DNA of 59,471 nt, from contig JAUSJX010000131.1 in NCBI GenBank assembly GCA_030647435.1, positions 1-59,471 on the forward strand. Direction: 5' to 3'. The notes below the pieces were generated by a model. The model was not told the DNA's origin, made no database searches, and saw nothing but the letters and a program-made list of their open reading frames with translations. This document shows, in pieces, positions 2,155 through 55,920 of this stretch. Position 1 is the stretch's first letter. The number at the start of each line of letters is the position of its first letter. The translations under genes were made by a program, and so were the position numbers. Source of the DNA: Candidatus Rokuibacteriota bacterium (lineage in GTDB: Bacteria > Methylomirabilota > Methylomirabilia > Rokubacteriales > CSP1-6).

Positions 2155-2244
2155 TGGCGGAGGGGGTGGGATTCGAACCCACGGTACAGTTGCCCGTACA
2201 CGGCATTTCCAGTGCCGCACCTTCGGCCACTCGGCCACCCCTCC
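2155..2244 (-). tRNA. tRNA-Ser(GGA)
   Basis: The sequence folds as a class II tRNA with a long variable arm. It has acceptor stem GGAGGGG/CCCCTCC, T-loop TTCGAAT, encoded CCA and anticodon loop CTGGAAA, giving GGA, which reads UCC and UCU. It lies in tandem with tRNA-Ser(CGA). Confidence 0.96.
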
Positions 2245-2340
2245 CCGATAAAGGCCATCTCACGACGGAACTCCCCGACCCTCGGGCGCCTTCGCGGAGC
2301 GCAGGCGCCTCGAGGTGCAAAATCAAAAACCGAAATTTAA

Positions 2341-2432
2341 TGGCGGAGGGGAGAGGATTTGAACCCCCGAGGGACTTGCGCCCCTATCCGATTTCGAGTC
2401 GGACGCCTTCAACCGGGCTCGGCCACCCCTCC
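2341..2432 (-). tRNA. tRNA-Ser(CGA)
   Basis: This is a class II tRNA with acceptor GGAGGGG/CCCCTCC, a long variable arm, T-loop TTCAAAT, encoded CCA and anticodon loop CTCGAAA, giving CGA for UCG. It directly follows tadA on the same strand. Confidence 0.96.
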
Positions 2433-2439
2433 GCGCCAC

Positions 2440-3035
<596 letters not shown>

Positions 3036-3038
3036 GTC

Positions 3039-3132
3039 TGGCGGAGAGGCCGGGATTCGAACCCGGGACAGAGGTTTTGCCCCTGTAACCGCTTAGCAGG
3101 CGGCTGCCTTCGGCCGACTCGGCCACCTCTCC
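3039..3132 (-). tRNA. tRNA-Ser(GCT)
   Basis: This is a class II tRNA with acceptor GGAGAGG/CCTCTCC, a long variable arm, anticodon loop CTGCTAA giving GCU for AGC/AGU, T-loop TTCGAAT and encoded CCA. It leads the leftward cluster, three bases before tRNA-Arg. Confidence 0.96.
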
Positions 3133-3242
3133 GTACAGTCAAGCCCACAGAGTATAAGGCATTCGCGACCCAGCGACTACCCAGAACCTCCATCTCAGCC
3201 TATGCTTGCCCAATGAACCCCAACCAGCCGGGAGAACCCACC

Positions 3243-5009
3243 ATGAGTCGCCTCCGCCGACTGCTCAAGAACGCCTGGGCGCTAACCCGGCCGTACTGGT
3301 TCTCCGAGGACCGCTGGGCGGCCTGGGGGCTGCTCCTGGCCGTCGTCACGCTGAATCTCGGCATCGTCTTCATCAACGTGCTGCTGAACAAGTGGAACAA
3401 CACCTTCTACAACTCGCTCCAGGACAAGAACTACGACGTTTTCGTCCAGCAGCTCTTCCGCTTCACGTGGCTGGCGGGCAGCTACATCATCGTGGCCGTG
3501 TACCAGCTCTACCTGAACCAGATGCTCCAGATTCGCTGGCGGCGTTGGCTGACCGAGCGGTACCTCGGGGAGTGGCTCAGGGACACGGCGTACTATCGCA
3601 TGCAGCTCGCCGGCGGCGAGACCGACAACCCGGACCAGCGCATCGCCGAGGACCTGCGGCTCTTCGTGACCGGCACGCTGGTGCTCGCGATCGGGGGCAT
3701 GCGCGCCGTGGTCACCCTGGTCTCCTTCCTCGCGATCCTCTGGGGCCTCTCCGGCGCGGTGACCCTGCCCGTCGGCGGCTTTCTCGTCACCATCCCCGGC
3801 TACATGGTCTGGGCAGCCCTCCTCTACGCGATCGTCGGCACGTGGCTCACCGACCGCATCGGCCGGCCCCTGGTACGCATGAACTTCGACCGACAGCGAT
3901 ATGAGGCGGATTTCCGCTTCGGCCTCGTGCGCTTCCGCGAGAACACCGAGGGCGTGGCCCTGTACCACGGCGAGCCCGACGAGTTGCGGAATTTCAGGAC
4001 CCGCTTCGGCTCGGTGGTCCGCAACTGGTGGGACATCATGCGCCAGCAGAAACGGTTGACGTGGTTCACCGCGGGCTACGGCCAGGCGGCGATCATCTTT
4101 CCCTTCGTGGTGGCGGCGCCTCGGTACTTCCGGGGCGAGATTCCCCTGGGCGGGCTCGTGCAAACCGCCTCGGCATTCGGCCAGGTTCAGGATTCCCTGT
4201 CGTTCATCGTGTCGTCGTACACGGACATCGCCGAGTGGCGTTCGGTGGTCCAGCGGCTCGTGGGCTTCGAGGAGGCGCTCGACCGGGTGCGCGCCCAGGC
4301 CGGCGCCCGCGACGGAATCCGGCGCGAGGCCGGCGACGCGCCCACGCTGGCCGTCGAGAACGTCGACCTCGCCCTGCCCGGAGGCACCGCGCTCATCTCG
4401 GGCGTGAATCTCGCGCTCGCGCGCGGCGAATCGGCGCTTCTCTCGGGACCGTCCGGCGCCGGAAAGAGCACGCTCATCCGGGCCATCGCGGGGATCTGGC
4501 CGTTCGGTCGAGGCGAGATCCGTGTCCCGCTGGGCCCCATGCTATTCCTGCCCCAGAAGCCCTATCTGCCCATCGGGACACTCAGAGAGGTCATCAGCTA
4601 TCCGACGCCGGCGGCGGGGCTGCCCGCGGGAGAACTGCCCGCGGGAGAACTGGACGACCAGGTCCTGCGCGAGGCGCTCGAAGCGGTGGGCCTGCCGGAG
4701 CTCGCCGGCCGCCTCGACGAGGCCGGGCACTGGGCGCTGCAGCTTTCCCCGGGCGAGCAGCAGCGAATCGCCTTCGCCCGCGCCCTCGTTCAGAAACCCG
4801 ACTGGCTCTTCCTCGACGAGGCAACCTCCGCGGTGGACGAGGCCGCGGAAACGCGGCTCTACCAGCTGGTCCGTGACCGCCTGCGCGGCACGGCCGTGCT
4901 CAGCATCGGGCACCGCAGTTCGCTCCGCGCCTTCCATGGCCGCCAACTCGTTGTGAAGCCGAACGGAAGCGCACCCGCGTCCATCGTGGAGGTGTCCGTC
5001 ACGTCGTGA
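3243..5009 (+). CDS. ABC transporter, fused membrane/ATPase, SbmA/YddA type
   Basis: The protein fuses an N-terminal membrane domain of the ABC_membrane_2 (SbmA/BacA, YddA, peroxisomal ABCD) type to one ATPase domain. The segment with LNKWNNTFYNSLQDKN is characteristic of this family. The C-terminal third has Walker A GPSGAGKST, signature LSPGEQQRIAFARAL and Walker B DWLFLDEAT. Such proteins move vitamins, fatty acyl compounds or peptides; the substrate here is unknown. I chose the ATG preceded by GGGAGAACCCACC rather than the one 30 bases upstream, which lacks a ribosome site. It is the only rightward gene in the first 15 kb. Confidence 0.9.
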   Translation: MSRLRRLLKNAWALTRPYWFSEDRWAAWGLLLAVVTLNLGIVFINVLLNKWNNTFYNSLQDKNYDVFVQQLFRFTWLAGSYIIVAVYQLYLNQMLQIRWRRWLTERYLGEWLRDTAYYRMQLAGGETDNPDQRIAEDLRLFVTGTLVLAIGGMRAVVTLVSFLAILWGLSGAVTLPVGGFLVTIPGYMVWAALLYAIVGTWLTDRIGRPLVRMNFDRQRYEADFRFGLVRFRENTEGVALYHGEPDELRNFRTRFGSVVRNWWDIMRQQKRLTWFTAGYGQAAIIFPFVVAAPRYFRGEIPLGGLVQTASAFGQVQDSLSFIVSSYTDIAEWRSVVQRLVGFEEALDRVRAQAGARDGIRREAGDAPTLAVENVDLALPGGTALISGVNLALARGESALLSGPSGAGKSTLIRAIAGIWPFGRGEIRVPLGPMLFLPQKPYLPIGTLREVISYPTPAAGLPAGELPAGELDDQVLREALEAVGLPELAGRLDEAGHWALQLSPGEQQRIAFARALVQKPDWLFLDEATSAVDEAAETRLYQLVRDRLRGTAVLSIGHRSSLRAFHGRQLVVKPNGSAPASIVEVSVTS

Positions 5010-5036
5010 GCGCCCAACGATGCTCTCGCCCACGGT

Positions 5037-5071
5037 CAACATGGCTTGGCCAGGTTGAGGATGCCATGTTG
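5037..5071. terminator. Possible hairpin between ABC transporter and tRNA-Ser(TGA)
   Basis: CAACATGGC and its exact complement GCCATGTTG are separated by 17 bases in the convergent intergenic gap. There is no strong T-run, so termination is only suggested. Confidence 0.35.
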
Positions 5072-5093
5072 AGGATGAATGACAAATGATAAT

Positions 5094-5183
5094 TGGCGGA
5101 GGGGGAGGGATTCGAACCCCCGACCCCTTGCGGGATTCCGGTTTTCAAGACCGGCGCCTTAAACCAGACTCGGCCACCCCTCC
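5094..5183 (-). tRNA. tRNA-Ser(TGA)
   Basis: This is a class II tRNA with acceptor GGAGGGG/CCCCTCC, anticodon loop CTTGAAA giving UGA for UCA and wobble codons, T-loop TTCGAAT and encoded CCA. It lies nine bases downstream of serS on the same strand. Confidence 0.96.
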
Positions 5184-39334: not shown

Positions 39335-39689
39335 GGGGGCGACCGGTTTCGACGGGGATCAATGAAGCGCAGGTGGCATCCCGAGGTGCTCGCTCCTCGT
39401 AAAACTGTGGGCACGGTCATAGCTGCCGACAACCAGCTAGCTCTGGCGGCCTAACACCCGCCAGCGTCCTCCGCATCGGGTCAACGGGGTGCGGGTTCGG
39501 ACGTCATATTCCGGGGACTGGCTCCGAACCCCGCTCTTGGGTGAGGGGCGAGACTTTTAGGAGCTGGCCGCCCTGACAACCAGCCGGTTGGAGGGATGGG
39601 TGGCGAGAGCACAAGACAACCGGCTATGGATGTAGATGCCTGTCGCGGAGGGTTTCCGGACGTGGGTTCAATTCCCACCGCCTCCACCA
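39335..39689 (+). ncRNA. ssrA: Transfer-messenger RNA
   Basis: The 5' end GGGGGCGACCGGTTTCGACGGG and the 3' tRNA-like end GTGGGTTCAATTCCCACC with encoded CCA pair into an alanyl acceptor stem (with a G-U at position 3). The tag reading frame ends GCGGCCTAA at 39454; reading back to about 39407 gives VGTVIAADNQLALAA, with the usual ALAA degradation signal. The resume codon is inferred and could be one codon later. Confidence 0.95.
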
Positions 39690-46533: not shown

Positions 46534-47589
46534 TCAAGACGCGGCGACCTGCCGGCTCACGGCCAGCCCCACGGCCATGTTCGGAATCACCGCGGAATGC
46601 TTGCCAGGACCGCCGGCGACGAGCAACAGGATGGCCTCCGGGCCGGGAATGATCGGCAGCCGCGCCTCATCGTCTGCAATGGCCTGCATCCAGCGCGGCC
46701 AGTCGTGCATCTGCCACATACCGCCGCGCTTGAGATCACGCAACGAGCGGCGGGCGGTCTCGTACAGCATCCGGCGGACGTCGGCCTTCGTCAGGCCGTC
46801 ACGATGGATGGTCGCCGCGTGCTCGGGGCCGAGGACGACCGCGCATTCGCTCTCGGCGAAGTACCACTTCGTGTTGCCGCCGAGCGACGTCAGCGTGTCG
46901 GCTATCACGCCCAGTACACCAGCCGCGGTCGTGCTCACGTGATCATTGACGTTGTGGGGCGACTCGCCGCCGAACACGGTGACCACGCTGTCATTGCGCG
47001 CGAAACCGCGCTCGACGTGCAGCGGCTCCCAGGGATTGGCCGCTTCGTTCTCGGCGATGCAGTACGAGTACTTCGACGGCTGCCCCTGCGTCGCCATGTC
47101 GCCCTCGCCGGGCCACCCACCGCCGATGTTGAGGAGCACAAGCCGGATGGCACGGCCGATGGTGGCGTTGGCGTGGTAGCCGGGACCGAACACGCCCGAG
47201 CCGGAATTCATCCCGAGCCGGCGGGCGATCGGCCCGTTGACGATCACCAGCGGCGCGACGGGATGGGTGGTGGCCTGCACGCTGTACAGATTGAACTTCG
47301 GATCGCACATCGCCTGGATTGCCGCCACGACCACCGGCATGAAGGCGGGGGCGCAGCCCGCCATCACGGCGTTGACGGCGACCTTCTCCAGCACTGCCTC
47401 CTCCCATGACGGTGCAATCTTGCCGAGGGAAACCGCCGGATCCAGGTCGACGGCCGACAGCATCGCGGCCACCCGCTCCTCGGTCGGCGGCACGATCGGC
47501 AGGCCGTCGGTCCATCGGCGTGAGCGGAAGTACTCGTTCAACTCCTCGTAGCGGTCGCTGACCTGCACCCGGCTCGAGACGAGATTCAC
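46534..47589 (-). CDS. Selenoprotein-associated protein, WTDGLPIVPPTE family (partner B)
   Basis: The 351-aa protein carries RRWTDGLPIVPPTEERVAAM near residue 25 and conserved cysteines at 79 (MAGCAPAF) and 95 (AMCDPKFN), plus one in KYSYCIAENE. Its paralogue 6 kb upstream shares these and the blocks THPVAPLVIVNGPI and PWEPLHVERGF. No known fold or enzyme class is obvious. It begins with GTG after GAGGAGG, 11 bases after selenoprotein B, so it probably acts with it. It is the last gene of the operon. Confidence 0.8.
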   Translation of the reverse strand: MNLVSSRVQVSDRYEELNEYFRSRRWTDGLPIVPPTEERVAAMLSAVDLDPAVSLGKIAPSWEEAVLEKVAVNAVMAGCAPAFMPVVVAAIQAMCDPKFNLYSVQATTHPVAPLVIVNGPIARRLGMNSGSGVFGPGYHANATIGRAIRLVLLNIGGGWPGEGDMATQGQPSKYSYCIAENEAANPWEPLHVERGFARNDSVVTVFGGESPHNVNDHVSTTAAGVLGVIADTLTSLGGNTKWYFAESECAVVLGPEHAATIHRDGLTKADVRRMLYETARRSLRDLKRGGMWQMHDWPRWMQAIADDEARLPIIPGPEAILLLVAGGPGKHSAVIPNMAVGLAVSRQVAAS

Positions 47590-47599
47590 GCTGCCCTCC

Positions 47600-48133
47600 T
47601 CATTTCTGCGGCATGAGCTTGTCGAAGGCTTCGACCGTCTCGGCCACCCGCGTGCCGACCTCCTCGGCGCGAAGCCCTCCCAATGGATGTCCGATGAAGA
47701 GCACCGGCAGGTCGGGCAGCCCCAAGCCCTCGCGCTCCCGCCGCGCCATCGGCTCGAAGGGATGGGTGCAGATGGCGGCCGCAAGGATGCCCTTGCCGTG
47801 CAACTCCGCTGCGTCGTGGATACTCCACGACGTACACGCCCCTCAGTCCCCGGAGCCCGTAAAGACGACGTCGCACTCCTTCGAGAGTGCCTCGATGATC
47901 TCCGGCGCCGCCGGCGTGGCGGCGTTGGCCTTGCGTCGCACCGTGACGCTGGCGGCGCCGTACCGCTCCACCAGTACATCGCCGAACTGCCGCGCCAGCT
48001 CGGCGAAGTTGGCCTTCGTGTTGTCGAGAAAGCCGATGCGCTTACCCTGCAGGCTGGCCGGCAGAGATCGCCCCGCCGCCGCCGACTGGCGCCACTCGGG
48101 GACGGGCGTGAGAACGGTAATGGTCGTCTCCAC
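47600..48133 (-). CDS. UGSC-like selenoprotein B (in-frame UGA = Sec97)
   Basis: One continuous 177-residue frame is interrupted only by a TGA at 47843-47845. The upstream part (KRIGFLDNTKANFAELARQF ... CDVVFTGSGD) and the downstream part (GACTSWSIHDAAELHGKGIL ... AEEVGTRVAETVEAFDKLMP) make a single domain with a redox motif U97-G-A-C100. A perfect hairpin follows the UGA. A second protein of the same design lies in the same operon. The family resembles the UGSC group, with Ala in place of Ser. It starts with GTG after GAGAAGGAGAAATAGCC. A conventional reading would split it into two short genes. Confidence 0.85.
47812..47845 (-). promoter_or_regulatory. SECIS-like element of selenoprotein B
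   Basis: Ten bases after the UGA, CGTCGTGGA pairs perfectly with TCCACGACG around the loop GUA. The loop occupies +20 to +22. This fits the general bacterial SECIS rules (loop 16-37 bases after UGA, G among the first loop bases). Confidence 0.8.
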
Positions 48134-48135
48134 GG

Positions 48136-49656
48136 CTATTTCTCCTTCTCGACGGTGTCGAGCCAGAGGATCGCCTCCGAGCGGGGACGGAAGCCCTTCA
48201 CTGACCCGGTCATCGCCGACACGCTGCCGGGCTGGAACAGGTAGATAGCGTTCGGGCCCTCGTAAAGGAGCTCCGAGATCTTCTGCAACATCTTCTCGCG
48301 CGCAACTGGCGTCGACGCCTGGCGCGACTCGTCGAGCATGCGGTCCACGCGCTCGTCGCAGAAGAGCTTGGTGCTGTTCTGGCAGCGGTTCAGGTTGACG
48401 ACGAAGTCGAAGTCGAGCGACGGAAAGTATGTCCAGCGGAGCAGCACGAGGTCGCTGAGTGTCCCGCCATAGAGGTGCTTGGCGAAGGAGCCCTGGTCGA
48501 CGGTCTGCAGCTTGACGCGCACTCCGACCTTGGCGAGGTCACCGACGATCGCCTCGATCACCTGCTTGTCATTGGGATAGAAACCGACGGTGCCGAACCA
48601 GGTCGCCTCGAAGCCATTCGGGTAGCCAGCCTGCTTGAGGAGCTCCCGCGCCCGCGCCGCATCGGCCGGAAACGGCTTGAGCGCTGGGTTGTAGCCGAAC
48701 CCGTCCTGCCCGACGTTCTGGCCAGCGAGCGGCTTGCCGTAGCCGTGCAGCACGTATTTGATGATGGCGTCCTTGTCGACCGCGTAGTTGAGCGCCTGTC
48801 GCACCTTCGGATTCGCAAGCGGACTGCCGGCCTGCGTGGAGCCCTTCAGAGGAATGACGTAGCTCCAGCCCGTGTAGGACGCGGCGGCCTTGAACCCGTC
48901 CTTCTCCAGACCGGCCGCCTCGTCAGGAGGCACCGGGTTGATGAAATCGACGTCGCCGCTGCGAAGCGCGGCGATCCGCGTGCCGTTCTCCGGCAGGTGC
49001 TTGAAGATCACGGTCTTGACCTTTGGCATCGGACGCCAGCCGTTGTCCACGGCCTCGAGCTTCACGTGCCCGTTGCGCCGGAACTCTGCCAGCCGGAACA
49101 TCCCAGTCCCCACCGGCGCCTCGGCGAAGCCGGCCGGCCCCTTCTCCTTGGCGTACTTCGCGGGCAGGATGAACACGACCGACACCGTCTTCGCGATGTT
49201 CGGATCGGGCGCGGCGGTGACGATACGTACCGTGAGCGGATCCACGGCCTCGACGGCCTTGATCGTCGGCACCCGGTTCTTCACGGCCGCCTTGGTCGCC
49301 GGGTCGATGACGCGGTCCAGCGTGAACTTCACCGACTCCGAGGTGAACGGCTCGCCGTTGTGAAACTTCACCTTGTCGCGCAGCTTGAACTCCCAGGTGG
49401 TGGGATTCAGGCGCTTCCACGACACGGCCAGGTTGGGCTGGGCGTCGTTATTGTCGCCGATCACGGTGAGGGCGTCGTAGAGCGCGTAGTACGACGGCAT
49501 CCAGGTGGTGCTCCAGAGCAAGTGCGGATCCATCGTGTCCGGGATGCCGGACAGGCCGATCGAGAGGGTGTCGCGGTCGGCACCGGCGGCGGTGGGCCAG
49601 AGCAGCCCCACGGTGATGAGCAGGACGGACAGAAGCGTGACGGCGCGACGGATCAC
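48136..49656 (-). CDS. Dipeptide/oligopeptide-type ABC solute-binding protein (family 5)
   Basis: A Sec signal peptide (RRAVTLLSVLLITVGLLWPT, cleavage near AGAD) precedes a 480-residue family 5 binding protein. The family pattern is seen in WKRLNPTTWEFKLRDKVKFHNGEPF and NPKVRQALNYAVDKDAII. Members bind peptides, nickel, glutathione or organic solutes. It begins with GTG overlapping the lyase stop and is followed within three bases by selenoprotein B. Confidence 0.9.
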   Translation of the reverse strand: MIRRAVTLLSVLLITVGLLWPTAAGADRDTLSIGLSGIPDTMDPHLLWSTTWMPSYYALYDALTVIGDNNDAQPNLAVSWKRLNPTTWEFKLRDKVKFHNGEPFTSESVKFTLDRVIDPATKAAVKNRVPTIKAVEAVDPLTVRIVTAAPDPNIAKTVSVVFILPAKYAKEKGPAGFAEAPVGTGMFRLAEFRRNGHVKLEAVDNGWRPMPKVKTVIFKHLPENGTRIAALRSGDVDFINPVPPDEAAGLEKDGFKAAASYTGWSYVIPLKGSTQAGSPLANPKVRQALNYAVDKDAIIKYVLHGYGKPLAGQNVGQDGFGYNPALKPFPADAARARELLKQAGYPNGFEATWFGTVGFYPNDKQVIEAIVGDLAKVGVRVKLQTVDQGSFAKHLYGGTLSDLVLLRWTYFPSLDFDFVVNLNRCQNSTKLFCDERVDRMLDESRQASTPVAREKMLQKISELLYEGPNAIYLFQPGSVSAMTGSVKGFRPRSEAILWLDTVEKEK

Positions 49657-50561
49657 AGGCGTCTCCTTTCGAGCGGTTGAACGGTGCGGAACCGGTCAAC
49701 GAGCGCGAGCGTGTCACGCGCGGACCGGACGTGGGCGTAGTCGATGAGCTCGCCGCGGAATCGCACGCCGGCCGAGCCGGCACGCTCGGCGGCGGCCATG
49801 GCCTCGAGGACCCCGCGACTGTACTCAATGTCGTCCTTCGAGGGCGTGTAGACCTCATTGACGATCGGCACGTGGGACGGATGGATGACGAATTCGCCGC
49901 GGTATCCGAGCTGCCGGTTGCGGAGCGCGTGGGCGCGCAGGCCGTCGAGGTCTTCGATATCGGTCCAGATACCCGAGATCGGATACTGAATACCGGCCGC
50001 GCGCGCGCCGACAACGATGCGCGAGCGCAGGTAGAGGCTCTCGATGCCGTCACGCGTCCACACGTACCCGATCGCGCGGTTGATGTCGCCGCCGCGCGCG
50101 GTCCCACCCATGATCGTCCCCACGCGCGGCGAGGCGGCGCAGATGTCGTACGCGTGCTCGATGCAGTTGGCCGTCTCCGCGGTGATCACCAGCTCGATGC
50201 GCCGGTCGGGAATACCGCGCCGGCGCTCGAGGTCGGACAGAAAGGTGTCGATGATCCGCACCTCCTCTGGTGTGTCGACCTTGGCGAGCACGATGCCCGT
50301 GAGCGCAGGGGTGGCCACCGCGTCGAGATCCTCGAAGAGCATTCCTGTCGCCATCGCATTCGTCCGTACGAAGCACGGGACTCCGGCGTCGGCGACGGCG
50401 TCGATAGCGGCGCCGATTCGCGCCCGCGTCGGCGCCTTGAGATCGTCCGGAAGCGCATCCTCGAGGTCGAGGATGATGGAATCGGCCCCGAGCCCGCCGG
50501 CCTTGGCGATCCACCGGTCCTTCTGGGCCGGGATGAAGAGCATCGTTCGGTAGAGCTGCAT
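49653..50561 (-). CDS. CitE/HpcH-family CoA-thioester lyase
   Basis: The TIM-barrel protein of 302 aa has MLFIPAQKDRWIAKAGGLGA, the metal-site segment DSIILDLEDALPDDLK and ITAETANCIEHAYDI, as in citrate lyase beta and malyl/citramalyl-CoA lyases. Such enzymes make or break a C-C bond in a CoA thioester. It follows a CoA-transferase by 15 bases, which suggests that the transferase supplies the CoA substrate. Confidence 0.87.
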   Translation of the reverse strand: MQLYRTMLFIPAQKDRWIAKAGGLGADSIILDLEDALPDDLKAPTRARIGAAIDAVADAGVPCFVRTNAMATGMLFEDLDAVATPALTGIVLAKVDTPEEVRIIDTFLSDLERRRGIPDRRIELVITAETANCIEHAYDICAASPRVGTIMGGTARGGDINRAIGYVWTRDGIESLYLRSRIVVGARAAGIQYPISGIWTDIEDLDGLRAHALRNRQLGYRGEFVIHPSHVPIVNEVYTPSKDDIEYSRGVLEAMAAAERAGSAGVRFRGELIDYAHVRSARDTLALVDRFRTVQPLERRRL

Positions 50562-50576: not shown

Positions 50577-51767
50577 TCAAATCGCGCCGCGGGCGCGCAA
50601 CTCCGCAAGCGCGGGCGCGGCCAGCCCGAGCAGCGATCCAAACACTTCGTCGTTGTGGGCACCGAGCGCCGGGCCCGTCCACTGCACCTCGCCGGCCGTG
50701 CGCGACATCGACGGCACGACGTTCTGCATCCGCACCGGCCCGAGCTCGTCGTCGTCCACGGTGATGAGGTTGCCACGCGCCTCGTAGGTCGGATCCTTGA
50801 CGATCATGTCCATGTCGTAGACGGGCGCGGCCACCGCATCGGCGCGCTCGAACTCGGTGAGCACCTCTTCCAGCGAGCGCTCGGCCATCCAACCCACCAG
50901 CATCTGATCGATCGCCTTGATGTCCGGCAGGATCGATTCGTCGATCGGCACGCCGAGCATCCGCGCGACGCGACGCACCACCGGCGGCGTGGCCGCGGAG
51001 ACCGTGACCCAGCGCTCGTCGCGCGTGCGGTAGACGTTGGACAGCACCGTGGACAGCGGGAACGGGAAGTTGTTCCCCTGGCGCATCGGCAGCACGCCGA
51101 GCTGTTGATGACTGATCACCTGCCACTCGATGAGGCGGAAGAGCGTCTCGTAGAGCGCCAGATCGATCACCTGGCCTTCGCCGCCGCCCTGATCGCGCCA
51201 GTAGAGCGCCATCATCACGCCGTAGGCGCCCATGAGCCCCGAGACCGTGTCCGCGAGCGAAAACCCGATGTGCATCGGCGCGCCCTCGGCGAAGCCCGTG
51301 ACGTGCACCACGCCGCTCATCGCCTCACCGGCGCGGCCGAAGCCCGGTGACTTACGGCGCGGTCCCGTCTGGCCATAGCCGGAGATGCGGAGCACGACGA
51401 GGCGCGGGTTGATGGCGTGCAGGCGGTCCCAGCCCAGCCCCAGGCGCTCGAGCGTCCCAGGGCGGTAGTTCTCGACCAGCACGTCGCTCTGCTCGACCAG
51501 GCGCTCCAGGAGCTGCTTGCCCTCCGGCGACTGGATGTTGAGCGTGACGCACTTCTTGTTGCGCGCGGAGACCTTCCACCACAGCGACACGCCGTCCTTG
51601 AAGGGACCCAGTCGCCGCATCGCGTCGCCGCCGTCGGGCCGCTCGACCTTGATGACGTCCGCGCCGAAGTCGCCGAGCAGCGTGGCCGCCATCGGCGCCG
51701 CGAGCGCGTGGCCAATGTCGAGCACGCGCACGCCGGCCAGCGGCGATTCCTTCGTCTTGTTGGTCAC
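50577..51767 (-). CDS. CaiB/BaiF family CoA-transferase
   Basis: Class III CoA-transferase of 396 aa. It has GVRVLDIGHALAAPMAATLLGDFGADVIKVE, which I read as two blocks, LDIGHALAAP and GDFGADVIKVERP. It also has the VENYRPGTLERLGLGW segment and GGGEGQVIDLALYE, which precedes the usual catalytic region. It moves CoA between acyl donors and an organic acid. The GTG start has AGGAGG eight bases upstream. It lies between transporter permeases and the lyase. Confidence 0.92.
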   Translation of the reverse strand: MTNKTKESPLAGVRVLDIGHALAAPMAATLLGDFGADVIKVERPDGGDAMRRLGPFKDGVSLWWKVSARNKKCVTLNIQSPEGKQLLERLVEQSDVLVENYRPGTLERLGLGWDRLHAINPRLVVLRISGYGQTGPRRKSPGFGRAGEAMSGVVHVTGFAEGAPMHIGFSLADTVSGLMGAYGVMMALYWRDQGGGEGQVIDLALYETLFRLIEWQVISHQQLGVLPMRQGNNFPFPLSTVLSNVYRTRDERWVTVSAATPPVVRRVARMLGVPIDESILPDIKAIDQMLVGWMAERSLEEVLTEFERADAVAAPVYDMDMIVKDPTYEARGNLITVDDDELGPVRMQNVVPSMSRTAGEVQWTGPALGAHNDEVFGSLLGLAAPALAELRARGAI

Positions 51768-52613: not shown

Positions 52614-53524
52614 GCCCGCAACCGCGGGTCGACGAGTCGCGCGAGCACCTCGGCCAGCGTGTTCGACACGGTGACGATGAGTGCGATCAGGAACACGGTC
52701 GCCTGGATGACGGGGAAGTCGCGGGACAGCACGGACTGCACCAGGCGCTGGCCGAGACCGGGCCAGGAGAAGATCGTCTCCACGATGACCGCGCCGCCGA
52801 ACAGCTGCCCGAAGTCGACCGCGATGATGATGATGACGGGGACGAGCGCGTTGCGCAGCGCGTGCTTGAACATCACCGACATCTCGGACAGGCCCTTGGC
52901 GCGCGCGGTGCGCACGAAGTCGCGGCCCAGCACCTCCAGTACGTTTGCGCGCGTCAGACGCACGAGCTTGGCGAGCAGGAACATGGACAGGGTCACGGCC
53001 GGCAGGATCAGATGCCGGGCGTCGCCATACCCGAAGGACGGCGTCACGCGCAGCTTGACCGCGAACACGAGGATCAGCAGCAGCCCGAGCCAGTAGGGCG
53101 GCATCGACTGGCCTAGGAGGACGACGAACCGCACAGCGCCATCGAGCGGCGAGTTGCGATTCACGGCCGCCACCACGCCGAGCGGCACCGCCACGCACAC
53201 CGTGACGACGATTGACACGCCGACGAGCACGAGAGACGGTACCAACGCCTCCAACACGAGGCGCACCGCCGGCACCTGGAGGAGCAGCGAGTCGCCGAAT
53301 CGGAAGTGCACGAGATCGATGAGGAACGTCCGGTACTGCGTCATCAGCGGCGCGGTCAGGCCGAGCTGCTGCCGTATCGCCTCGACCTGCTCGCCGCTGG
53401 CATTCGGACCGGCGATCACCGCGGCCGGATCGCCGGTGGAGCGCATGGCGAAGAACAGGATCGTGGAGACGCCGAAGACGATCAGCACCATCTCGAGGCC
53501 CTGGCGAAATATGAGCCTAGACAT
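52610..53524 (-). CDS. Dipeptide-type ABC permease (DppB type)
   Basis: This is a 304-aa six-helix permease with RSTGDPAAVIAGPNASGEQV, the loop VLGRDFVRTARAKGLSE and IFSWPGLGQRLVQSVLSRD, all typical of DppB. Its ATG start overlaps the end of partner A by eight bases, which places the transporter in the same transcript as the selenoprotein pair. Confidence 0.94.
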   Translation of the reverse strand: MSRLIFRQGLEMVLIVFGVSTILFFAMRSTGDPAAVIAGPNASGEQVEAIRQQLGLTAPLMTQYRTFLIDLVHFRFGDSLLLQVPAVRLVLEALVPSLVLVGVSIVVTVCVAVPLGVVAAVNRNSPLDGAVRFVVLLGQSMPPYWLGLLLILVFAVKLRVTPSFGYGDARHLILPAVTLSMFLLAKLVRLTRANVLEVLGRDFVRTARAKGLSEMSVMFKHALRNALVPVIIIIAVDFGQLFGGAVIVETIFSWPGLGQRLVQSVLSRDFPVIQATVFLIALIVTVSNTLAEVLARLVDPRLRA

Positions 53525-54548
53525 CAATCCGGCAGCTGATCGCCTCGGTCTCTCCGAAGGACGGCAGATACGTGATGTGGTACGGCTCGGGCCCGCCGGC
53601 GACGACAACGAGGATGTCCTCCGGGCGCCGGGTGACCCGCACCATCCCTGCGTGCACGCACGGCGTGAACATCGGCGCGATCTCGGCGGCGTCGTATGAC
53701 GCCTCCGGCATCCCCGAGTGCTCCCAGAGGTACGCCTGCACGTCGTGCTTCGAGAACCCTTCCGCCGCCAAGCGCTGGGCGTGGCCAGACGGCAGCACGA
53801 CCAGAGGATTGCCCGCGCCGATGAACACGTTGTTGTTGCCCTTGGTGGCCATCGCGTCCGCAACGAGGTCGAGAGCGCCGCGGCCATGCGGGCCGAGGTG
53901 ACAGATGTTGTGTGTTCCCTGCGCGCCGATGACCGTCGCCACGCTGTCCTCGACGGCGAAGCCGCGGTCGACATGAAGCGGCGTCCACGGGCTGTTCTCC
54001 TCGTCCTCACCGAAGCAGAACGTGTACTTGCCCGGCATGCCGAGTGTGGACTTGTCGACCTCGCCCGGCGTGCCGCCGCCGATATTCTGCAGGATGAAGC
54101 GCATCGCCCGGCCGATGGCCGCGTTCGAGCGACGCCCCGGCCCGAGCGCGTTGCGGCCGCAGTTCAATTCCACGCCGCTCCGGATGGGCCCGTTGACGAG
54201 CAGCAGCGGCGCCACGGGGTTGGTCGTCGTCTGAATACCGTGAAGGTTGAACGTTGGCGCGCACACAGCAGCCACACCGGCGGCGACAACGGGGGCGTAC
54301 GCAGGCAGGCAGCCGGCCATGACCATGTTGATCGCGACCTTTTCCGCGGTCGCCGGGGCCATCCGTGGAGCGACGACCGCGATGATCTCGTCCGGTCCGC
54401 GCCGAAGCGCGGCGAGCATGGCCAGAATCTTGTCCTCGGTGGGCGGCACGATCGGTAGGCCGTCGGTCCACCCCTGCCGGTAATAGAAGTCGAAGACGGC
54501 ATCGGGATCGGCGAGTTCGAACGCTCGAGAGGCGATGGCTGTGGTCAT
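53517..54548 (-). CDS. Selenoprotein-associated protein, WTDGLPIVPPTE family (partner A)
   Basis: The 343-aa paralogue of partner B has QGWTDGLPIVPPTEDKILAM near residue 27, conserved C80 (MAGCLPAY) and C96 (AVCAPTFN), TNPVAPLLLVNGPIRSG, and KYTFCFGEDEE with PWTPLHVDRGF. The three shared cysteines could be resolving thiols for the Sec-containing neighbour. It starts with ATG seven bases after selenoprotein A ends. The function is unknown. Confidence 0.8.
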   Translation of the reverse strand: MTTAIASRAFELADPDAVFDFYYRQGWTDGLPIVPPTEDKILAMLAALRRGPDEIIAVVAPRMAPATAEKVAINMVMAGCLPAYAPVVAAGVAAVCAPTFNLHGIQTTTNPVAPLLLVNGPIRSGVELNCGRNALGPGRRSNAAIGRAMRFILQNIGGGTPGEVDKSTLGMPGKYTFCFGEDEENSPWTPLHVDRGFAVEDSVATVIGAQGTHNICHLGPHGRGALDLVADAMATKGNNNVFIGAGNPLVVLPSGHAQRLAAEGFSKHDVQAYLWEHSGMPEASYDAAEIAPMFTPCVHAGMVRVTRRPEDILVVVAGGPEPYHITYLPSFGETEAISCRIDV

Positions 54549-54555
54549 CGCCCCC

Positions 54556-55086
54556 TCATTCGCCTCTCAGCGCCTTGAGGATCAACGCTACCGAGGCCTC
54601 GGCGATGCCGAGCATCACCGACTCGTCGCCGTACTCCGTGAGCTCGGTCTTCGGCAGCGTCACCATGCAGCCGAGATCGACACCGCGCGATTTCAGGACT
54701 TCCGTCGCCAGCGACACGAACCGTTCCGTGACCAGCACCACCGCCGGGATGCCGCGCTTCGAGAGCACTGTTTGGTCGTGGACACTCCACGCTGTGCAGG
54801 CCCCTCAATTGGCGAGGCCGACGATCGCGACGTCGCTCGTCGCGACGACCTCCTCGAGCAGCGCCGCCGGCGTCTCGTTCGAGGTCGGGATGCGCCACTC
54901 GCGCACCGCCGCCACGCCGTAACGCTCGGGGAAGTACTTCGCGAACGTGCGCGACATGAGGTCCATGCTGCGCCAACCGTTGTTGAGGACGGCCACGCGC
55001 ATGCCCTCGAGCGAGTGCGAGACGGTCTTCCGAACCGTCCGCTCGACTTTCATTTCGACCGAAGGATCGAACACTCGAATCGTCAC
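54556..55086 (-). CDS. UGSC-like selenoprotein A (in-frame UGA = Sec94)
   Basis: A 176-residue frame is interrupted only by the TGA at 54805-54807. Upstream is MRVAVLNNGWRSMDLMSRTF ... SDVAIVGLAN; downstream is GACTAWSVHDQTVLSKRGIP ... ASVALILKALRGE. The motif is U94-G-A-C97, exactly as in selenoprotein B, and the flanking secondary structure (beta strand, Sec loop, helix) agrees. It starts with GTG overlapping the IclR stop, with AAAGGAG upstream. Overall identity to copy B is low outside the Sec loop, so the duplication is old. Confidence 0.85.
54777..54807 (-). promoter_or_regulatory. SECIS-like element of selenoprotein A
   Basis: Thirteen bases after the UGA, CGTGGA pairs with TCCACG around the loop GUG. 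The loop occupies +20 to +22, the same place as in selenoprotein B, although the stem is shorter (6 bp instead of 9). Confidence 0.78.
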
Positions 55087-55889
55087 TGTGCGGCTCCTTT
55101 CGTCACCGTCGCGCCGAATAGGCCGGCTTCCTCGGCCACCCCGGCGGCGGCCTTCTTCATGAGCGCAAGGATGTTTCGGGCGCGCTTGCGAACGCGGAAG
55201 GATGGACCGGCCACCACAAGCGCGTGCCGATCGGCGGCTGCCTGCCCAGGGTGAAGGATCGGCACGGAGAGGCCCGTGAGATCCTCGAGGAACTCGCCGT
55301 TGCTGACCGCGTAGCCGCGCCGGCGGATCTCCTGCAGGTTGCGCCGTAGCGCCGCGGGCGTCGTAATTGTGTGGGCGGTGTACTTCTCGAGACCGACCTC
55401 GGCGATGTACCGCTGTATGTAGGTATCCGGCTGCATCGCCAGGCACATCTTGCCGCCCGCCGTACAGTGCAGGGGACGCCGGGTGCCGACCTGCGCGATG
55501 TAGCGGATGGGCTGTGACGACTCGATCTTCTCGATAAAAACGATCTCGTTGCCCTCGAGCATGCCGAGGTACACGACCTCCCGCGTGTCCAGCGCCAGGC
55601 GTTCGAGGTACGGCTTGGCGAGGCTGCGCAGATCGCCGCCCTGCGGCATGGCGGACGCGAGGCCGGCGAGGAAGTACCCGATACGGTAGGTCTTCGACGA
55701 ACCATCGAAGTCGAGCAGCCGGCGGCGCACGAGCGTGCGCGCGATGTTGAGGGTCGTGCTCTTCGGCACCTCCAGGGTCTCGACCAGCTGCGCCAGCGTC
55801 AACGGCACGGGGCTGCGCGCCACCGCTTCCAGCGCGTCGATCGCACGATCGACGGAGCGGACGGTTCGGACAGTGTTGCTGGTGATCAT
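55083..55889 (-). CDS. IclR family transcriptional regulator
   Basis: The N-terminal winged helix reads LTLAQLVETLEVPKSTTLNI and the C-terminal ligand domain has VVYLGMLEGNEIVFIEKIES, GTRRPLHCTAGGKMCLAM and GYAVSNGEFLEDLTGLSVPI. The length is about 268 aa. I chose the ATG giving MITSNTVRTVRSVDRAI; a GTG four codons earlier is possible. It is the first gene of the selenoprotein operon, and its start lies in a large palindrome, so it probably represses itself and the operon until an organic-acid-like effector binds. Confidence 0.93.
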   Translation of the reverse strand: MITSNTVRTVRSVDRAIDALEAVARSPVPLTLAQLVETLEVPKSTTLNIARTLVRRRLLDFDGSSKTYRIGYFLAGLASAMPQGGDLRSLAKPYLERLALDTREVVYLGMLEGNEIVFIEKIESSQPIRYIAQVGTRRPLHCTAGGKMCLAMQPDTYIQRYIAEVGLEKYTAHTITTPAALRRNLQEIRRRGYAVSNGEFLEDLTGLSVPILHPGQAAADRHALVVAGPSFRVRKRARNILALMKKAAAGVAEEAGLFGATVTKGAAQ

Positions 55890-55920
55890 ATATGTGACCA
55901 CTGGTCACATATATGATCAC
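55882..55920. promoter_or_regulatory. 39-bp operator palindrome for the IclR regulator
   Basis: Two perfect 19-base arms (GTGATCATATATGTGACCA and its complement) flank a single central base. The site covers the -10 region and the start codons of iclR. It is strikingly AT-rich for this genome. Confidence 0.88.

Follow-up and report, generated by a model that had tools for sequence, protein, structure and literature searches.

Results

The window, i.e. the whole stretch of 59,471 nucleotides of Candidatus Rokuibacteriota DNA that was analysed, carries on its minus strand a gene of the UGSC selenoprotein family (47600..48133, -; 177 aa). Its frame opens with a GTG at 48133, which is preceded at a distance of 8 nt by the Shine-Dalgarno sequence AAGGAG (48142..48147, -), and closes with the TGA stop at 47602-47600. 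The TGA of codon 97 (47843..47845, -) had been recognised in the initial annotation as the sole interruption of the 177-residue frame and had been read as selenocysteine (Sec); both statements agree with the results below. It is followed by the codon of Cys100 (47834..47836, -), the presumed resolving Cys of a UxxC motif, so that the motif of this first UGSC copy is U97-G-A-C100, one residue off the U-G-S-C of the family. The Pfam profile PF24696 (UGSC) matches continuously over the TGA with 159.6 bits at a gathering cut-off of 25, covering residues 7-170 and profile positions 2-166 of 172, while the two halves taken singly score 71 and 64 bits. Hence, the downstream half indeed continues the domain, and it lacks a good start of its own near its beginning, since the first in-frame start is the TTG at 47803, 13 codons in. 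The NCBIfam UGSC equivalog NF041046, searched with C replacing U, gave 119.8 bits, which is below its cut-off of 125; the NCBI pipeline might therefore miss naming the gene automatically. It had also been anticipated that standard annotation would break such a gene, and this happened in Paracoccus ferrooxidans, where it appears as two hypothetical proteins, and in Acidovorax T1, where it appears as one short protein.

Among 40 homologues, only P10, U/C97, C100 and G115 are invariant. All 12 UGSC copies of the host genome contain exactly one TGA each, always in the same aligned column, with the motifs UGSC (nine copies), UGAC (two copies, both in the window) and USTC (one copy); every match listed for the genus likewise contains one TGA. 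Seven homologues have TGC or TGT at the Sec column (two from Natrinema, the others from Halorientalis, Halalkalicoccus, Embleya, Arthrobacter and Variovorax), and the Roseovarius homologue has TGT. The alignment of homologues, which had been proposed as a decisive check, thus shows TGA or Cys codons at the exact Sec column. To our knowledge, Sec is not used by haloarchaea. Three matches that were weak or partial contained no stop (L106 in genome G015, one each in G088 and G085).

The perfect 9-bp hairpin noticed earlier behind the UGA was found to be conserved and covarying in an alignment of 41 distinct Sec sequences. This bacterial SECIS element (47812..47832, -) has the sequence CGUCGUGGA-GUA-UCCACGACG, read from 47832 to 47812; its stem begins 10 nt past the UGA, and the apical loop A-GUA-U lies 18 nt from the UGA. 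Folding of the single sequence is moderately unusual (z -2.2; 5 of 200 shuffles equally stable). Across the alignment, however, the nine stem pairs are formed in 92.1% of the cells compared to 81.5% in shuffles, 34 cells are compensatory, and the covariation score amounts to 0.245 compared to 0.078 after shuffling; none of 500 shuffles matched these pairing and covariation values. In a control with the opposite strand slid, pairing reached at most about 50%. These values refer to the alignment without its three most divergent sequences (L105, L065 and L088), which retain 6 of the 9 pairs. Among the inner pairs, C-G changes to G-C, and U-A to G-U or A-U. Such swaps impose coupled residue changes just past Sec (Trp..His, Gly..Leu, Ser..Leu, Cys..His), i.e. 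the RNA structure shapes the protein sequence after Sec. In the Cys homologues 3-9 of the 9 pairs are retained and the G-U loop is mostly gone. The published bacterial SECIS model requires a G among the first two nucleotides of the loop, at 16-37 nt from the UGA (PMC13188914); the UGSC loop N-G-U-N-N and the 18-nt spacing satisfy this model, as a suggested SECIS check had aimed to establish. An Rfam search of the SECIS region matched no family.

The host genome (5.79 Mb, 98.5% complete, 2% contaminated) encodes a complete Sec machinery consisting of selA (584 bits), selB (380 bits) and tRNA-Sec (anticodon TCA), clustered on contig C56, and selD (343 bits). The selD gene (G000:C98:94090-95046) carries one in-frame TGA, hence SelD is probably a selenoprotein itself. 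In the window, four tRNA-Ser genes are clustered with a tRNA-Arg gene (2155-5183, -), which explains weak matches of the tRNA-Sec model there; a tmRNA is also present (39335-39689, +). Collectively, a single profile running over the TGA, the TGA/Cys column, the covarying SECIS and the full Sec machinery make it, on sequence grounds, nearly certain that the UGA of codon 97 is decoded as Sec. That the TGA is a true stop, which would leave a disrupted pseudogene or a sequencing error with two separate or dead halves, has practically no likelihood; the only point in its favour is that standard gene finding would place a stop here, but the TGA recurs at one column in every genomic copy and in dozens of other genomes, with Cys in still others, and both halves are conserved beside the covarying SECIS and the complete machinery.

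The UGSC gene is followed by a gene for a protein of about 351 aa (46534..47589, -), which begins with GTG at 47589, 10 nt past the UGSC stop, and has AGGAGG upstream. This partner family had no match in Pfam, NCBIfam or PDB. In 92 of 103 loci from bacteria and haloarchaea the partner adjoins UGSC on the same strand; among these 103 loci the two genes occur in either order and are sometimes fused in frame. In ten of the eleven loci without partner at most 1.5 kb per side of UGSC are covered, and the eleventh (L104) is about the same, so a slightly more distant partner would be missed. Most of the plasmid matches of the partner that were examined have UGSC adjacent or fused, but in Haladaptatus (L154) the partner is present and no UGSC was detected. 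Three haloarchaeal loci (L123, L126, L152) show partner-UGSC-partner triplets, in which two partner paralogues surround one UGSC gene, and on a Paracoccus ferrooxidans plasmid (L128) a Sec-type UGSC pair and an annotated selB are separated by about 4 kb. The distance matrices of UGSC and partner are correlated with 0.80, compared to a null maximum of 0.15, and for the twelve pairs of the host genome the correlation is 0.68, which none of 5000 permutations reached. As judged from these distances, UGSC and partner coevolve; it is highly likely that they represent one functional unit, very probably one enzyme. The partner alignment has no invariant Cys, so that nothing points to a pyruvoyl cofactor as in GrdE/PrdA, and this idea was set aside. 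The structure model of the partner, made from four sequences, is poor (pLDDT 59.5).

A second UGSC selenoprotein gene of about 175 aa, also with the motif UGAC (54558..55086, -; Sec UGA at 54805..54807, -), lies in the window with its own partner gene (53517..54548, -), and this second pair (53517-55086, -) shares an apparent transcription unit with the first one. The minus-strand order is IclR-type regulator, second UGSC, second partner, ABC permeases, family III CoA-transferase, HpcH/HpaI-type lyase, solute-binding protein, first UGSC and first partner. The regulator gene, which comes first in the cluster (55083..55901, -), overlaps the start of the second UGSC gene by 4 nt. The CoA-transferase of CaiB type (50577..51767, -) has homologues in six partner-bearing plasmid loci, the relative of HpcH/HpaI-type CoA-ester lyases (49653..50561, -) has homologues beside UGSC/partner genes in the haloarchaeal loci L123 and L154, and the ABC-transporter solute-binding protein (SBP_bac_5; 48136..49656, -) belongs to the apparent transcription unit of the first UGSC gene. 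Homologues of both CoA-transferase and lyase stand beside UGSC and partner in Halorientalis, and beside the partner alone in Haladaptatus. Other UGSC copies of the host genome are found near genes for TRAP transporters, TauD, luciferase-like proteins and hydroxyacid dehydrogenases, and several of these neighbourhoods look mutually unrelated.

The twelve UGSC copies of the host genome share only 17-49% identity with one another, hence they are not recent duplicates. Within the phylum, UGSC is present in 72 of 95 genomes with 359 copies altogether; the 57 genomes of the host's own family have at least two copies each and 5.9 on average. Two of the relatives are Candidatus Rokuibacteriota. Carriers of UGSC and partner include soil bacteria and, with Cys, haloarchaea and actinobacteria. 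Among the viral contigs searched, no relative of UGSC or of the partner was found.

In glycine/sarcosine/betaine reductase, the subunit that attacks the substrate is GrdB, also called selenoprotein B; D-proline reductase contains PrdB, whose homology to GrdB has been published. The GrdB-type genes of the phylum are also interrupted by TGA, and read-through gives, for example, VLLVAT-U-GTCNRCGATIAKEIERAGIPV. Many of these GrdB relatives (L130, L131, L133-L138 and L140) have the motif U-G-T-S-T-R-C, in which Ser stands in place of the UxxC Cys and the Cys at position +6 is kept. In a profile comparison with hhalign, the alignment of UGSC to the Sec domain of GrdB spanned 100 columns and placed Sec opposite Sec without a gap (probability 96.7, E 3.4e-10, the latter referring to one single comparison). 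When the 14 columns around Sec were deleted, the score of 46.8 still exceeded the 21.3 obtained with the best of 100 column shuffles, while the same kind of comparison with one TrxA as control gave no signal. Homology of UGSC to the Sec-bearing C-terminal domain of GrdB is therefore strongly supported. UGSC was rejected as a member of the GrdB family proper, because PF07355 (347 positions) found no match in the 177-aa UGSC protein and the partner is unlike GrdE; comparisons of the partner with GrdE, and with the N-terminal part of GrdB, gave no signal. In this regard, the label "Selenoprotein B" given to the gene in the initial annotation is not the name of the UGSC family, but it does fit GrdB, a distant relative.

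The structure model of UGSC, although made from four sequences only, reached a pLDDT of 81 and a pTM of 0.79. It predicts a doubly wound alpha/beta fold, in which five beta-alpha units follow each other and Sec stands past the third strand at the start of the following helix; this predicted topology differs from the thioredoxin order. Foldseek/VIA-align of the model returned generic doubly wound alpha/beta matches only (top Z 10.8), and nothing usable came from PDB profile searches with the alignments of UGSC, partner and GrdB, so that no relative with a solved structure is at hand for comparison. It is conceivable that UGSC is a thioredoxin-fold thiol/selenol oxidoreductase, such as a disulfide or peroxide reductase, with the partner as its protein substrate or helper. 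The UxxC motif, a published suggestion of Trx-likeness (PMC2398784) and the thioredoxin genes at three plasmid loci speak for it, i.e. trxB near the UGSC pair in Arthrobacter, Roseovarius and Variovorax, all with Cys forms and once with trxA too. No thioredoxin or thioredoxin reductase gene was found adjacent to the UGSC copies of the host genome. We regard this thioredoxin-type reading as unlikely, because the predicted strand order is not that of thioredoxin, the TrxA signal is nil while the GrdB signal is strong, and the contexts are catabolic rather than stress-related.

Discussion

UGSC proteins rank among the most abundant selenoproteins of aquatic metagenomes. The gene under study is a further member of this family, which is known since 2008, when the Global Ocean Sampling study described 255 Sec and 21 Cys forms of UGSC-containing selenoproteins (PMC2398784). 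That study guessed that UGSC proteins are Trx-like and reported a fusion to a conserved domain named "Unknown_1" (PMC2398784). We disagree with the first point, since neither the profile comparisons nor the predicted fold make UGSC evidently thioredoxin-like, while the "Unknown_1" domain of the published fusion is probably our partner family. A survey from 2016 counted 33 UGSC genes in 26 organisms (PMC5029168), and according to a review from 2026 one Methylomirabilota genome contains 63 selenoprotein genes, hence the selenium richness of the phylum was already known. UGSC seems to account for much of this richness, and its large expansions may be one reason why so many selenoproteins have been reported for that Methylomirabilota genome. 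The initial annotation had missed the UGSC name (PF24696/NF041046), the second copy, the partner gene and the kinship to GrdB. As far as checked, the relationship to GrdB, the association with the partner and the expansion of the family across the phylum appear to be new, which for the first two should be taken as provisional.

The link to the GrdB/PrdB lineage together with a nearly obligatory partner leads to a concrete and testable enzyme idea for UGSC. We consider it rather probable that UGSC and its partner form a reductase of two subunits that depends on a selenol and is encoded in catabolic operons. Whether its reductive chemistry would be of the GrdB/PrdB type, as the analogy suggests, is evenly balanced. 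On sequence grounds, UGA 97 is decoded by SelA, SelB, SelD and tRNA-Sec(UCA) via the SECIS at 47832-47812. In the proposed enzyme, the partner would bind and polarise the substrate, a small organic acid or the CoA ester of one, and the selenolate of Sec97 would attack the partner-bound substrate, whose substituent would be reduced off. Cys100 of UxxC could then resolve the adduct as a selenenylsulfide, and thioredoxin/thioredoxin reductase might regenerate the selenol. The trxB genes beside three Cys forms, one of them with trxA, speak for this, and the lack of such genes next to the copies of the host genome speaks against it. The paralogues, each located by different transporters and catabolic enzymes, could be isozymes for distinct substrates. 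The simplest reading by analogy would be a reductase that draws on thioredoxin, is specific for its substrate and acts on imported organic acids or on the CoA esters of these.

A GrdB-like fold might also use its Sec in a non-reductive manner, for example for nucleophilic catalysis or acyl transfer on CoA esters, in which case the partner could serve as a lyase or hydratase. The genes for CoA-transferase and CoA-ester lyase that lie nearby, both in the window and in haloarchaea, are consistent with that. We consider this to be even less likely than the thioredoxin-type reading, because UGSC proteins invariably keep the resolving Cys of UxxC, a sign of a redox cycle, and because the relatives GrdB and PrdB are reductases. 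Returning to the two-subunit reductase, a broader proposal can be made tentatively: UGSC and partner could represent a class of two-subunit Sec reductases of their own, a compact branch within the glycine/proline reductase lineage that would have evolved separately and would cleave organic acids or CoA esters reductively. In Methylomirabilota it would have multiplied into many isozymes per cell, each specific for its substrate. This generalisation is possible, but we hold it with less confidence than the reductase itself. Moreover, the finding that annotation splits UGSC genes in two and gives the partner no name should be taken as a warning.

Compared to known systems, the hairpin resembles the bacterial SECIS consensus (PMC13188914) in its 9-bp stem, the G-U that opens the apical loop and the 18-nt spacing. 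The protein agrees with the UGSC family (PF24696/NF041046) in the whole-length profile match, the Sec in UxxC, its length and the bacterial SECIS; it deviates by the motif UGAC instead of UGSC, and the 12 copies in one genome contrast with the 33 genes in 26 organisms surveyed before (PMC5029168). Unlike GrdB, UGSC lacks the N-terminal part of about 350 residues, the second Cys of UxxCxxC is absent from most UGSC copies, and the partner does not detectably resemble the GrdE of the GrdB system. Nevertheless, UGSC has in common with GrdB (PF07355) and PrdB the homologous Sec domain, an equal spacing from Sec to the helix behind it and to the G-I-P loop, and a similar domain end.
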